64,000 nucleotides of DNA from Nesterenkonia sp. PF2B19 (GTDB taxonomy: Bacteria > Actinomycetota > Actinomycetes > Actinomycetales > Micrococcaceae), in contig NZ_MDSS02000010.1 of assembly GCF_001758425.2 (NCBI RefSeq), positions 26,265 through 90,264 on the forward strand. The letters run 5' to 3'. Under the pieces are notes generated by a model. The model was given only the letters and a program-made list of their open reading frames with translations. It made no database searches and was not told the DNA's origin. The stretch's first letter is position 1. Every line of letters starts with the position of its first letter. A program made the position numbers and the translations under genes. Shown in pieces: positions 31,390 through 43,942 of the stretch.

Positions 31390-31418
31390 TTGACGTGGCG
31401 AGCGTCACTCTCCATAAT
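31390..31418 (+). promoter_or_regulatory. sigma-70-type promoter of creatinase
   Basis: TTGACG at 31390-31395, a 17-bp spacer and CATAAT at 31413-31418 make a near-consensus housekeeping promoter. The start of transcription would fall inside the operator that begins 4 bp further on. The creatinase start codon is 90 bp downstream of the -10. Confidence 0.75.
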
Positions 31419-31421
31419 TGG

Positions 31422-31447
31422 CGCAACTGAGTTGTGTTGAATGCAAC
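31422..31447 (+). promoter_or_regulatory. three-half-site operator of creatinase
   Basis: CGCAAC, TGA, GTTGTG, five bases, TGCAAC: an inverted pair followed by a third half-site. The element starts 32 bp after the first base of the -35. The same order, spacing and position recur at 33752 and 43917. It covers the transcription start, which implies repression. The adjacent IclR protein is the best candidate. Confidence 0.75.
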
Positions 31448-31507
31448 TCAGCGATTCAGACACCGCGCTCTCCACATATGGGCGCCCGACGACGGCGAGG
31501 CACACCG

Positions 31508-32752
31508 ATGACGACCACCACTGACACTGTCTCCGACCTGGAGCGCCTGAAGACGCTGCACAACGGCGAGAAGCAGCCGCTGACGTTCTCCGCCGAAGAG
31601 TTCGAGCGCCGCCTGTCGGGCCTTCGGCGCATCATGAGCGAACAGGGCCTCGACGCCGCGATCCTGACCAGCTACCACGGCATCAAGTACTACTCCGACT
31701 TCCTCTACACCACCTTCGGCCGCAACTACGCACTGGTCGTCACGCAGGACGATTCAGTCACCGTCACCGCCAACATCGATGCCGGCATGCCGTGGCGGAC
31801 CAGCCACGCCGACAACATCGTCTACACCGACTGGAAACGTGACAACTTCTACTACGGCCTGCAGCAGGCCGTGGCCCGCGCCGGCGTCCCCGCCTCACGA
31901 ATCGGCGTCGAGGACGACTCCCTGCCGGTGATGACACGACGCAGCATCCAGGACGCCTTCCCGGATGCCGAGCTCCTCGACGTCTCGCAGGCCGCCATGC
32001 GCCAGAGGATGATCAAGTCGGACGAGGAGATCGAGGTCATCCGACATGGCGCCCGCATTGCGGATCTCGGAGGTGAGGCGATCAAGGCCGCCATCCGCGA
32101 GGGCATCATGGAATATGAGGTCGCCCTCATCGGCACCGAGGCGATGACCCACGAGATCGCCAGAACCTTCCCCCACCGCGAAGTGCGGGACACCTGGGTC
32201 TGGTTCCAGTCCGGCATCAACACCGACGGCGCCCACAACTGGGCGACCACCCGCCGGCTGCAGCACGGCGACATCCTGTCGCTGAACTGCTTCCCCATGA
32301 CCTCGGGCTACTACACCGCTCTGGAGCGCACACTGTTCCTCGGCGAGCCGGACGAGACGAGCCTGCACCTGTGGAACGTCAACGTCGAGGTGCATCGGCG
32401 CGGCCTCGAGCTGATCAGGCCCGGGGCGGTCTGCAAGGACATTGCGGCAGAGCTCAACGAGATCTACGTGAGCCACGGACTCCTCCCCCGGCGCACCTTC
32501 GGATACGGCCACTCGTTCGGGGTGCTCTCCCACTACTACGGCCGCGAGGCCGGCCTGGAGCTGCGCGAGGACATCGACACCGTCCTCGAACCAGGCATGG
32601 TGGTCTCCATGGAGCCCATGATCACGATCCCCGAGGGCGAGCCCGGCGCGGGAGGATACCGCGAACACGATATCCTCGTCGTCCAGGAGGACGGAGCTGA
32701 GAACATCACCGGATTCGGCTTCGGACCGGAGCACAACATCATCCTCGCCTGA
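31508..32752 (+). CDS. creatinase (creatine amidinohydrolase)
   Basis: This 414-residue pita-bread-fold enzyme splits creatine into sarcosine and urea without a metal. It follows the Pseudomonas creatinase pattern closely: ILTSYHGIKYYSDFLYTTFGR, IVYTDWKRDN, WFQSGINTDGAHNWATTRR with the catalytic His near residue 243, LSLNCFPMTSGYYTALERTLF, YGHSFGVLSHYYGREAGLELRED and SMEPMITIPEGEPGAGGYREHD. These also set it apart from metal-dependent M24 peptidases. GAGG lies 7 nt before ATG 31508. It stands alone between a strong regulated promoter and a terminator hairpin. Creatininase, sarcosine oxidase and SHMT genes follow within 15 kb, which confirms the role. Confidence 0.95.
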   Translation: MTTTTDTVSDLERLKTLHNGEKQPLTFSAEEFERRLSGLRRIMSEQGLDAAILTSYHGIKYYSDFLYTTFGRNYALVVTQDDSVTVTANIDAGMPWRTSHADNIVYTDWKRDNFYYGLQQAVARAGVPASRIGVEDDSLPVMTRRSIQDAFPDAELLDVSQAAMRQRMIKSDEEIEVIRHGARIADLGGEAIKAAIREGIMEYEVALIGTEAMTHEIARTFPHREVRDTWVWFQSGINTDGAHNWATTRRLQHGDILSLNCFPMTSGYYTALERTLFLGEPDETSLHLWNVNVEVHRRGLELIRPGAVCKDIAAELNEIYVSHGLLPRRTFGYGHSFGVLSHYYGREAGLELREDIDTVLEPGMVVSMEPMITIPEGEPGAGGYREHDILVVQEDGAENITGFGFGPEHNIILA

Positions 32753-32764
32753 GGCTCCTCATCG

Positions 32765-32802
32765 CACGGTGGGGTCGACGCCGGAGCGTCGGCCCCACCG
32801 TG
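32765..32802 (+). terminator. terminator hairpin after creatinase
   Basis: CACGGTGGGG pairs perfectly with CCCCACCGTG, and after one mismatch CGACG pairs with CGTCG, leaving a 6-nt loop. It begins 12 bp after the creatinase stop and ends 30 bp before the IclR start, so it may end most creatinase transcripts while allowing some readthrough. Confidence 0.7.
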
Positions 32803-32832
32803 GCCACGGGCTGGAGAACAGGAGCCCCCGAC

Positions 32833-33621
32833 ATGGCAGACCGCGAGACCAGGCGACAGCCGGGCCGTGAGCCCTCGGTGATCGTCAACGTCATCGAGGT
32901 GCTCCGCTGCTTCACCGTCGACGAGCCGCAGCAGAGCGTCACCGGGATCTCCTCCCAGGTCGGCCTCCACAAGTCGACCGTCTCGCGCATCCTGGCCACG
33001 CTCGAGGATGAGCGCATCGTGGAGCGCGACGAACCCTCCCGCCGCTACCAGCTCGGCCTGGGCCTGATCGCCGTCGCCGGACCGCTGCTGGCCAATCTGG
33101 ACGTGCGTCGCGTCTCCCTCGACGAGCTCCAGGATCTCGCTGCGGAGACCGCCGAGACCGCGGCGCTGACCATCTGGGACGGCGAATCCTCTGTGACGGT
33201 TGAGCAGGTGGCGAGCCGGCTTCAGGTCAAACACACCTCCGAGCTGGGCAGCCGATACTCGACCGGCCTGAGCGCCAGCGTGCAGGTGCTCCTCGCCCAT
33301 CGCCCTCCGGGAGAGGCCCAGCGCCTCCTGGACACCGGGAGGGTGACGATCCCGCCGTCCCTGTCCACGGAGCAGCACCTCGACCTGCTCGCCCAGGTCC
33401 GCCGCCAGGGCTTCGCGGTCAACCACGCCCAGACGTCCGCCGATGAGGCCGGAGTCGCCGCCCCCGTGCGGGACCACCGCGGGGAGGTCGTCGCCGCCAT
33501 GATGATCGCAGCCCCCGCCTTCCGCGTCCCAGAGACGCGCATCCCGGAGCTGGTGCAGCTGTGTCGCCACTCTGCCGACCGGGTCAGTCGGCGCCTGGGC
33601 GCCGCACCCCAGCCCTCCTGA
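32833..33621 (+). CDS. IclR family transcriptional regulator (creatine regulon)
   Basis: This 262-residue regulator has an N-terminal winged HTH (VIEVLRCFTVDEPQQSVTGISSQVGLHKSTVSRILATLEDERIVERD, residues 18-64) and the C-terminal IclR effector domain. The latter is recognisable by RYSTGLSASVQVLLAHRPPGEAQRLL and the tail VAAPVRDHRGEVVAAMMIAAP. GGAG lies 8 nt before ATG 32833. It sits between creatinase and the MHS transporter, both preceded by the shared three-half-site operator, and is the probable binding protein. The effector is likely creatine, creatinine or sarcosine (inference). Confidence 0.9.
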   Translation: MADRETRRQPGREPSVIVNVIEVLRCFTVDEPQQSVTGISSQVGLHKSTVSRILATLEDERIVERDEPSRRYQLGLGLIAVAGPLLANLDVRRVSLDELQDLAAETAETAALTIWDGESSVTVEQVASRLQVKHTSELGSRYSTGLSASVQVLLAHRPPGEAQRLLDTGRVTIPPSLSTEQHLDLLAQVRRQGFAVNHAQTSADEAGVAAPVRDHRGEVVAAMMIAAPAFRVPETRIPELVQLCRHSADRVSRRLGAAPQPS

Positions 33622-33719
33622 CCGCGACACCCCTTCGGCACACCTCCTGCTGCGATCCGCGCCCCGGTTCGGCGCGGCATGCCCGCACGCGCCCCCCCCC
33701 ACTGAACTGTGCCGAACCG

Positions 33720-43078: not shown

Positions 43079-43105
43079 GTCCCCTCCTCGTGCCTTGTTT
43101 GTCGA

Positions 43106-43123
43106 CAACTGATATATCAGTTG
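43106..43123. promoter_or_regulatory. perfect palindrome, probable GntR operator 1
   Basis: CAACTGATATATCAGTTG is an 18-bp perfect palindrome between the divergent glyA-sox operon and the FCD-type GntR gene, 28 bp upstream of the glyA start. Its AT-rich centre and length fit GntR-family dimers. Confidence 0.65.
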
Positions 43124-43133
43124 ACGCCTTACA

Positions 43134-43151
43134 ATATGAGGTACGTCATAT
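43134..43151. promoter_or_regulatory. imperfect palindrome, probable GntR operator 2
   Basis: ATATGA, GGTACG, TCATAT: 18 bp with a GTAC centre and one mismatched pair. It lies 37 bp upstream of the GntR start and 10 bp from the first palindrome, so one protein could bind both and control both directions. Confidence 0.5.
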
Positions 43152-43187
43152 CCGGTCAACCCCTCCCGCGCAGATAGCGAGACAGCC

Positions 43188-43847
43188 ATGCGTCCCGATC
43201 CCTCCCCGGCCGCTGGGCCGCTGCCGCTGGGCGAGCGCGCCTACCGCGAGCTTCGCGACCGCCTCATCCTGCTCGACATCCCTGCGGGCGCGCCGATCAG
43301 CGAGAACGCACTGACGGAGGAGCTGGGGATAGGCCGCACCCCGCTGCGCGAGGCCCTCAAGCGCCTCGAGACGGACCATCTGGTCGTGACCTACCCGCGC
43401 CGCGGGACCTTCGCGACGCCGGCCGACGTCACCGAACTCGCAACGATCTCCGAGATCAGGATGCTGCTGGAACCGCATGCGGCCGCCAAAGCCGCCGAGC
43501 GACGAGGCGGCTCCGCACGGAGCCAGATCGAACGCGCACTCGAGTCCATCCGGCTGATCGAGACGACGTCGAGCCGTCGGGAGCTCATCACCCAGGATCT
43601 GGAGATCCACCGCACCATCTATCGCGCCGCCGAGAACCCCCATCTGGAGGAGACGCTCGTCCGCCTGGACAATCTGGCCACCCGGATCTGGTGCCTGGTG
43701 CTGCACCGACTCCCCAGCATCACCACACACATCACCGAGCACGAGGCCCTGCTGGCCGCCATCCTCGGCGGGGACTCCCCCGGCGCCGAACGCCTCGCGC
43801 GCACCCACGTCGCCGCGTTCGAAGCCACGGTGCGCACCGCGCTGTGA
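43188..43847 (+). CDS. GntR family regulator, FCD type (sox operon)
   Basis: This 219-residue regulator has a winged HTH (AYRELRDRLILLDIPAGAPISENALTEELGIGRTPLREALKRLE, residues 18-61) and an all-helical FCD effector domain. The latter has the metal-binding pattern RMLLEPHAA, DLEIHRTIYRAAENPHLEETL and ITEHEALLAAI, with His residues at the usual places. Its ribosome site is weak. It is divergent from glyA-soxBDAG with 109 bp and two palindromes between, so it probably represses or senses a ligand for that operon. It differs from the IclR-type control of the creatinase and transporter promoters. Confidence 0.9.
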   Translation: MRPDPSPAAGPLPLGERAYRELRDRLILLDIPAGAPISENALTEELGIGRTPLREALKRLETDHLVVTYPRRGTFATPADVTELATISEIRMLLEPHAAAKAAERRGGSARSQIERALESIRLIETTSSRRELITQDLEIHRTIYRAAENPHLEETLVRLDNLATRIWCLVLHRLPSITTHITEHEALLAAILGGDSPGAERLARTHVAAFEATVRTAL

Positions 43848-43884
43848 CCGGACCCCTGAGTCGCCCCATGACAGAGAGGGCCCC

Positions 43885-43913
43885 TTGACCGCGAGGACAG
43901 ATCCCCACATAAT
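43885..43913 (+). promoter_or_regulatory. sigma-70-type promoter of BCCT-creatininase operon
   Basis: TTGACC at 43885-43890, a 17-bp spacer and CATAAT at 43908-43913. The -10 hexamer is identical to that of the creatinase promoter, and the operator begins 4 bp after it in both. Confidence 0.75.
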
Positions 43914-43916
43914 TCA

Positions 43917-43942
43917 TGCAACTCAGTTGTGACTGACGCAAC
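43917..43942 (+). promoter_or_regulatory. three-half-site operator of BCCT-creatininase operon
   Basis: TGCAAC, TCA, GTTGTG, five bases, CGCAAC: the third copy of the element seen at 31422 and 33752, again 32 bp after the first base of the -35. It is 99 bp before the BCCT start codon. Confidence 0.75.

Follow-up and report, generated by a model that had tools for sequence, protein, structure and literature searches.

A conserved three-box operator in strict promoter register at the creatine and creatinine genes of Nesterenkonia sp. PF2B19, likely bound by a neighbouring IclR-family protein

Why should three separate promoters of one gene cluster carry the same DNA element at the same distance from their hexamers, and which protein would read it? 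This question is raised by a stretch of 64,000 nucleotides from Nesterenkonia sp. PF2B19 (contig NZ_MDSS02000010.1; hereafter the window), in which the element, three boxes of alternating direction, precedes creatine and creatinine genes. We find that it is a conserved regulon operator with an unusually strict promoter register. Judging from sequence, the likely binder of its three copies is the IclR-family protein encoded at 32800-33621, a probable repressor that would keep three transcription units silent until released by a creatine-type compound.

One operator in three promoters

A pattern scan of the 64-kb window with YGCAAC-N3-GTTGYG-N5-YGCAAC (boxes 1, 2, and 3) returned exact matches at 31422-31447, 33752-33777, and 43917-43942. 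This confirms a preliminary description of the locus, whose claim of a constant 32-bp distance from the first base of a -35 hexamer (31390, 33720, and 43885) to the start of each copy was likewise borne out, with 3 bp between the -10 hexamer and box 1. The plan common to all three promoters is TTGAC(G/C), a 17-bp spacer, CATAAT or TACTCT, 3 bp, and box 1. The hexamers below were read from the sequence and the operators come from the pattern scan.

31390..31395, forward strand: -35 hexamer TTGACG of the creatinase-iclR promoter, in a register kept in relatives
31413..31418, forward strand: -10-like hexamer CATAAT of the creatinase-iclR promoter, 17-bp spacer
31422..31447, forward strand: three-box operator CGCAAC-TGA-GTTGTG-TTGAA-TGCAAC
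33720..33725, forward strand: -35 hexamer TTGACG of the transporter promoter
33743..33748, forward strand: -10-like hexamer TACTCT of the transporter promoter, 17-bp spacer
33752..33777, forward strand: three-box operator CGCAAC-CGA-GTTGCG-TTCAT-CGCAAC
43885..43890, forward strand: -35 hexamer TTGACC of the BCCT-creatininase promoter
43908..43913, forward strand: -10-like hexamer CATAAT of the BCCT-creatininase promoter, 17-bp spacer
43917..43942, forward strand: three-box operator TGCAAC-TCA-GTTGTG-ACTGA-CGCAAC

When up to three mismatches are allowed, the window holds four matches, the fourth (three mismatches) being a reverse-strand reading at 33761, and none of 100 dinucleotide shuffles reached four (mean 0.26, maximum 2). 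About 0.001 exact sites would be expected by chance genome-wide, as estimated from the base composition of the window. Nor is the pattern widespread at unrelated genes elsewhere in this genome: across 3.70 Mb in 134 contigs, the three window sites are the only matches with at most two mismatches, the reversed control pattern has none at that stringency, and the 15-bp palindrome alone occurs exactly only at the three operator sites.

The genes driven, as identified by Pfam, NCBIfam, and PDB matches, are those named in the preliminary description. Site 1 precedes creatinase and iclR, site 2 a transporter of the metabolite/H+ symporter (MHS) type, and site 3 a BCCT-family transporter and then creatininase.

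31508..32752, forward strand: creatinase (creatine amidinohydrolase); Pfam PF00557/PF01321; best match PDB 1chm, E 1.9e-169
32800..33621, forward strand: IclR-family regulator, likely the operator-binding protein; Pfam PF09339 and PF01614; co-occurs with the operator
33797..35170, forward strand: MFS transporter of the MHS type; Pfam MFS_1/Sugar_tr; best NCBIfam match TIGR00883
43188..43847: GntR/FCD protein gene, adjoining the third site
44041..45846, forward strand: BCCT-family transporter; Pfam PF02028, E 3e-138
45843..46661, forward strand: creatininase; TIGR04448, 309.3 bits (cutoff 235); PDB 1j2t, E 1.6e-69

Because iclR starts only 47-80 bp after the creatinase stop, depending on the start chosen (the true one may be the ATG at 32833), it probably belongs to the first transcription unit together with creatinase. 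Its product, 262 aa in the database copy, combines a winged helix-turn-helix (HTH) domain (PF09339, 43.9 bits, cutoff 22) with an IclR_C effector domain (PF01614, 92 bits, cutoff 24), and its PDB homologues include IclR, KdgR, and TtgV entries. The MHS-type transporter, which scores 374.7 bits against TIGR00883 and is below the cutoff of 443.45, possibly takes up creatine, and the BCCT transporter possibly takes up creatinine. Between sites 2 and 3, the opposite strand carries purU, soxG, soxA, soxB, and glyA, with the GntR/FCD gene beside glyA, and this interval holds no copy of the element in the window scan at up to three mismatches. A LysR-family regulator gene lies at 48605-49501, about 2 kb past creatininase.

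Anatomy of the operator in relatives

The arrangement seen in the window recurs with the same spacing elsewhere. Among 169 spacer combinations scanned, 3/5 alone is enriched (100 matches, against at most 5 for any other), and in 90 of 100 sites with at most one mismatch, box 3 points towards the start of a regulon gene within 450 bp. The genes faced by these 90 sites encode a transporter (49), creatinase (28), BCCT (6), creatininase (6), or soxB (1). The distance from the start of a TTGAC to box 1 is 31-34 bp in 78 of the 90 contexts, and exactly 32 bp in 44, whereas 200 shuffles gave at most 3 TTGAC at any single offset; the -35/-10 spacer is 17 bp long in 65. Box conservation is partly built into base frequencies taken from sites picked at no more than one mismatch, an effect that relaxed sets lessen. 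In 140 non-redundant sites with up to three mismatches, boxes 1, 2, and 3 are intact in 96, 101, and 120 and carry 65, 48, and 32 mismatches, respectively, which makes box 3 the best kept and box 1 the least. Boxes 1 and 3 have the same direction and lie 20 bp, or about two helical turns, apart.

Two other explanations bear on these observations. Three similar promoters within 12.5 kb could be the product of a recent promoter duplication that left three copies free of functional constraint. We regard this as practically negligible, because the promoters are dissimilar outside the hexamers and boxes, by which duplication is already contradicted, and because the element recurs with fixed spacing and register in 74 promoter contexts that are less than 70% identical. 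The boxes are also complementary and lie at the expected 5' end of the mRNA, so that box 2 might pair with either box 1 or box 3 in the leader and form a switching hairpin; box 2-box 3 pairing does appear in the best fold of two leaders and, for the third, in the centroid. However, the leader folds are not better than those of shuffles (z -0.83, -0.14, and 0.39), transcription is predicted to start inside box 1, and the presence of the element tracks the gene of a DNA-binding protein. Moreover, departures in box 1 are mostly uncompensated in box 2 (40 cases versus 2 compensated), as expected of a DNA site rather than an RNA stem, making an RNA switch extremely improbable.

The odd number of boxes raises the question of a missing fourth. 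With up to one mismatch, a fourth box is found on the gene side in 4 of the 90 contexts and on the promoter side in none, and a systematic fourth box was rejected; its absence from the gene side in 86 of 90 contexts fits, but does not prove, an odd number such as the one and a half dimers that the preliminary description put forward as possible. In four loci (L144, L145, L151, and L094), a fourth box at N3 creates two palindromes 20 bp apart, which resemble tandem sites described for other IclR proteins (passages of PMC8222616).

Some loci carry operators in pairs. At up to two mismatches to a relaxed pattern, in which box 2 is GTTGYR, 14 loci have two same-direction operators within 400 bp, spaced 143-147 bp in six (L143, L150, L140, L149, L148, and L146) and 121-123 bp in three (L132, L136, and L147); such pairs may reflect a second promoter or a DNA loop. 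Sinomonas has pairs facing away from each other, 62-64 bp apart (L108, L111, L121, L129, and L155). In Kocuria tytonis, the operator faces soxB (L110, position 7016), and the regulon can therefore extend to sarcosine oxidase.

Co-occurrence with IclR and creatinase

Which protein binds the operator was approached through a survey of 395 genomes of the family Micrococcaceae, with the operator counted at no more than one mismatch (strict), creatinase at E ≤1e-150, and this IclR at E ≤1e-60. The strict operator is present in 154 genomes, versus 12 for the reversed control, while creatinase is found in 177 and the IclR in 175. Operator and IclR occur together in 144 genomes, with 10 having the operator only, 31 IclR only, and 210 neither (Fisher p 7e-63). 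Among the 177 creatinase genomes, the strict operator accompanies IclR in 141 of 170, against 1 of 7 without IclR (p 2.5e-4), so that the pattern goes with IclR and creatinase in related genomes. All 29 IclR-bearing creatinase genomes devoid of a strict operator were inspected: 27 have a degenerate site (≤2 mismatches, relaxed pattern), and in the other two (L169 and L188) the contig stops before the promoter. A site is thus present in 168 of the 170 genomes with both genes (141 strict and 27 degenerate). In stretches around strict sites, taken one each from 20 genomes, creatinase and iclR are present in 17; in L065, two sites accompany genes for a transporter, sox, BCCT, and creatininase, creatinase and iclR being out of reach, and L067, a contig end, shows no pathway genes.

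Other creatinase loci have no intact iclR. In four of them (L157, L158, L175, and L195), a search that allowed three mismatches found no site in front of pathway genes, and in L194, the second creatinase cluster of genome G151, iclR is split into two frames and the operator is missing, as if it had decayed together with its regulator. L182 (G356) and L192 begin at the cluster and are uninformative on the operator.

Conversely, 12 family genomes have a site but no creatinase match, with the loci of G086, G220, and G298 left out of their reading. G298 has IclR, and G066 and G197 have transporter sites with IclR on a separate contig. In G353, glyA, sox, and purU precede a site where the contig stops, the G104 site is likewise at a contig end, and five others (G044, G071, G278, G281, and G046) have a site without a pathway gene nearby. 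Further sites away from the cluster are found before another MHS transporter copy in G087 and G108 (L203 and L204), and without a neighbouring pathway gene in G340 (L205).

The association extends beyond the family. Starting from an alignment of 17 IclR relatives, 124 stretches were confirmed in named genomes; the analysis covers the best 80, 71 of which have at least 2.5 kb upstream of iclR. Creatinase is present in all 71 loci and a site (≤2 mismatches, relaxed pattern) in 68, with 0, 1, and 2 mismatches in 54, 10, and 4 loci, respectively. Exact-site loci span Arthrobacter, Citricoccus, Nocardiopsis, Georgenia, Humibacillus, and Planosporangium. The scan of the 71 loci counts near-symmetric pairs on both strands, which makes its box tables bimodal, and we relied on the locus table instead. 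In 1.42 Mb of IclR-anchored stretches, there are 133 sites with at most two mismatches versus none for the reversed control. Creatinase occurs in 8 of 394 class genomes, 5 of them outside the family; L189, L190, and L191 have exact sites and IclR, whereas L192 starts at creatinase with no IclR seen. Closer to home, the site (≤1 mismatch), creatinase, and this IclR are all missing from the 29 other genomes of the window's genus; at two mismatches, a single scattered match is found in 7 and a control match in 3. The creatine/creatinine regulon was probably gained as a unit.

Since operator and neighbouring iclR co-occur in relatives, IclR likely binds the operator. Another cluster regulator could do so in its place, above all the GntR/FCD protein encoded at 43188-43847, with IclR a mere neighbour: the GntR gene adjoins the third site and is found in the clusters of many relatives. 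However, L157, L158, and L175 have creatinase and GntR without IclR, and no operator near pathway genes, which speaks against GntR as the binder, and L060, L061, and the same clusters in the 20-kb stretches L143 and L150 have operators and IclR with no GntR in reach. Together with a box arrangement that fits a published IclR class (as that class is described in PMC8222616), this makes binding by another regulator highly improbable, and binding by the window IclR very likely. A palindrome at 43136 between glyA and the GntR gene, ATGAGGTACGTCAT, was considered as a GntR operator and rejected, being found in 1 of the 37 loci that contain both glyA and the GntR gene (≤1 mismatch), several kb away from the two.

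Mode of action and relation to known systems

How might IclR act on this operator? It is probably a repressor over the start site: transcription is predicted to start inside box 1 (31424-31426, 33754-33756, and 43919-43921), so that a bound protein would block the promoter. By occupying the site, IclR would silence creatinase, the transporter, and BCCT-creatininase as long as no creatine or related compound brings about its release and, with iclR located behind creatinase, it would repress its own gene as well. Boxes 2-3 (GTTGYR-N5-YGCAAC, 17 bp), the best-kept inverted pair, are probably the main dimer site, and a second pair of subunits would bind at box 1, which lies flush with the -10. The form we favour is an IclR tetramer on three boxes, with three of its four DNA-binding domains used and the fourth free. 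The inducer is probably creatine, because it is the intermediate common to the three units, although creatinine or sarcosine is possible. Binding, repression rather than activation, the inducer, and the oligomeric state are what we infer here. The asymmetric operator of the local IclR proposed in the preliminary description, at creatine/creatinine genes and in fixed register, is supported by co-occurrence and spacing in relatives.

Two unlikely variants keep IclR as the binding protein. One is that a single IclR dimer chooses, according to creatine or creatinine, between boxes 1-2, which cover the -10 and the start and would shut the promoter, and boxes 2-3, one turn downstream. If so, one promoter would be served by two dimer geometries of one protein, and it would be for the sake of this choice that the -35/-10/operator register is fixed across genera. 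The other, rather unlikely as well, is that IclR activates, or both activates and represses. The three-box site of PcaU (PMC8222616, in part) lends it some weight. Against it, each of the three operators starts 3 bp past the -10 and overlies the expected start, this register is kept across genera, and the -35 hexamers, being close to consensus, would work without an activator.

Several points nevertheless weigh against repression by IclR through this operator. First, 10 of the 100 sites face no queried regulon gene: 3 are reverse readings of four-box sites, 4 face away in Sinomonas, 2 are in Brachybacterium without a queried gene, and 1 overlaps its gene match. Second, three loci with IclR and creatinase (L139, L142, and L153, from Rhodococcus opacus and two Saccharomonospora) have no site at up to two mismatches, weaker sites with 3-4 mismatches being present, and in L193, which has both genes and comes from another family, the best site has two mismatches and lies 2.5 kb before creatinase. 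Third, an operator and creatinase occur in G049 with no IclR reaching the threshold, nor is there one in its stretch L206; among the seven IclR-less creatinase genomes, the stretch of G356 (L182) starts at the cluster and G232 and G379 were left out of the locus reading. Fourth, an exact site at position 7698 of L072 lies in a genome without creatinase and near no pathway gene, with a remote IclR-type gene (26% identity) about 1 kb away; it may belong to another regulator or be due to chance. Fifth, IclR and operator mostly share one cluster, and this linkage inflates their association. Finally, PcaU, which also has a three-box site, acts as both activator and repressor, so that repression is not certain.

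The preliminary description knew of no operator of this form at creatinine genes, but novelty of the form as such is not supported. The architecture is not new but belongs to a published class: in 2021, Suvorova and Gelfand predicted, for 32 orthologous groups of the IclR family, sites of three boxes that alternate in direction, cited PcaU, PobR, and HmgR as earlier cases, and suggested two alternative dimer modes (PMC8222616, of which the main text is meant here and below). The present element shares the three boxes and their alternating direction. Its boxes 1-2 (TGCAAC-N3-GTTGCA) resemble the group 2 pair TGRAACA-N1-2-TGTTYCA, and boxes 2-3 (GTTGCR-N5-YGCAAC, 17 bp) the group 1 pair GTT-11-AAC, whereas the core GCAAC/GTTGC departs by one base per box from the consensus GRAAC/GTTYC, as some published members do too (PMC8222616). 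The HTH residues His57-Lys58, invariant in 17 relatives, may match the His-G/C and Lys-G/C contact positions predicted there, the numbering being approximate. As in the PcaU, PobR, and HmgR operators, a palindrome is joined by an extra external half-site, and in PcaU the extra box is required for binding (PMC8222616). Those proteins control aromatic catabolism, unlike IclR here, and the window IclR scores 91.6 bits against TIGR02431, the PcaR/PcaU/PobR model, below its cutoff of 284.75, which places it outside that subfamily. What differs from the published class is the regulon, creatine/creatinine, and the fixed -35/-10 register, which the parts of PMC8222616 consulted do not describe. The string "creatin" has no occurrence in the main text of PMC8222616, the supplementary tables being outside this search, so that the orthologous group may be listed there.

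Among the papers searched, judged by title and the opening of the abstract, we found PMC8222616 as the only work on three-box IclR-family sites, and no report linking IclR to creatinase or a creatine/creatinine regulon, or describing a fixed promoter register for such a regulon. The creatine/creatinine regulon of IclR is thus apparently new. Other regulators of such genes are known. Pseudomonas has the creatine regulator CahR. In Corynebacterium glutamicum ATCC 14067, creatine/creatinine use genes, including an MFS transporter (CreT), are likewise under control, but the regulator is AmtR, a TetR-family nitrogen regulator with the site CTAT-N6-ATAG, and the passages on this system name no IclR protein (PMC8864220). 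SoxR, a negative regulator in the creatinine cluster of Arthrobacter sp. TE1826, belongs to the LysR family and targets the gene of monomeric sarcosine oxidase (cited in PMC4941409).

A structure may already be at hand. PDB entry 3obf, an effector domain annotated simply as a putative IclR-family regulator, shares 87-88% identity with the IclR proteins of creatinase clusters in Paenarthrobacter and Arthrobacter (L147, L152, and L138), and is therefore nearly certainly an orthologue; its source organism is Arthrobacter aurescens. The ligand of 3obf could be sought among creatine-type compounds, and the existing structure makes the question of the IclR ligand testable at once. Creatininase, creatinase, and sarcosine oxidase are used in clinical creatinine tests (as mentioned in PMC4941409). 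A practically useful catabolic pathway here gains a likely regulator, and its precisely defined operator could be put to use in a promoter that senses creatine or creatinine. With its spacing and promoter position known, this operator offers a clean test case for the little-tested idea of three-box IclR operators.

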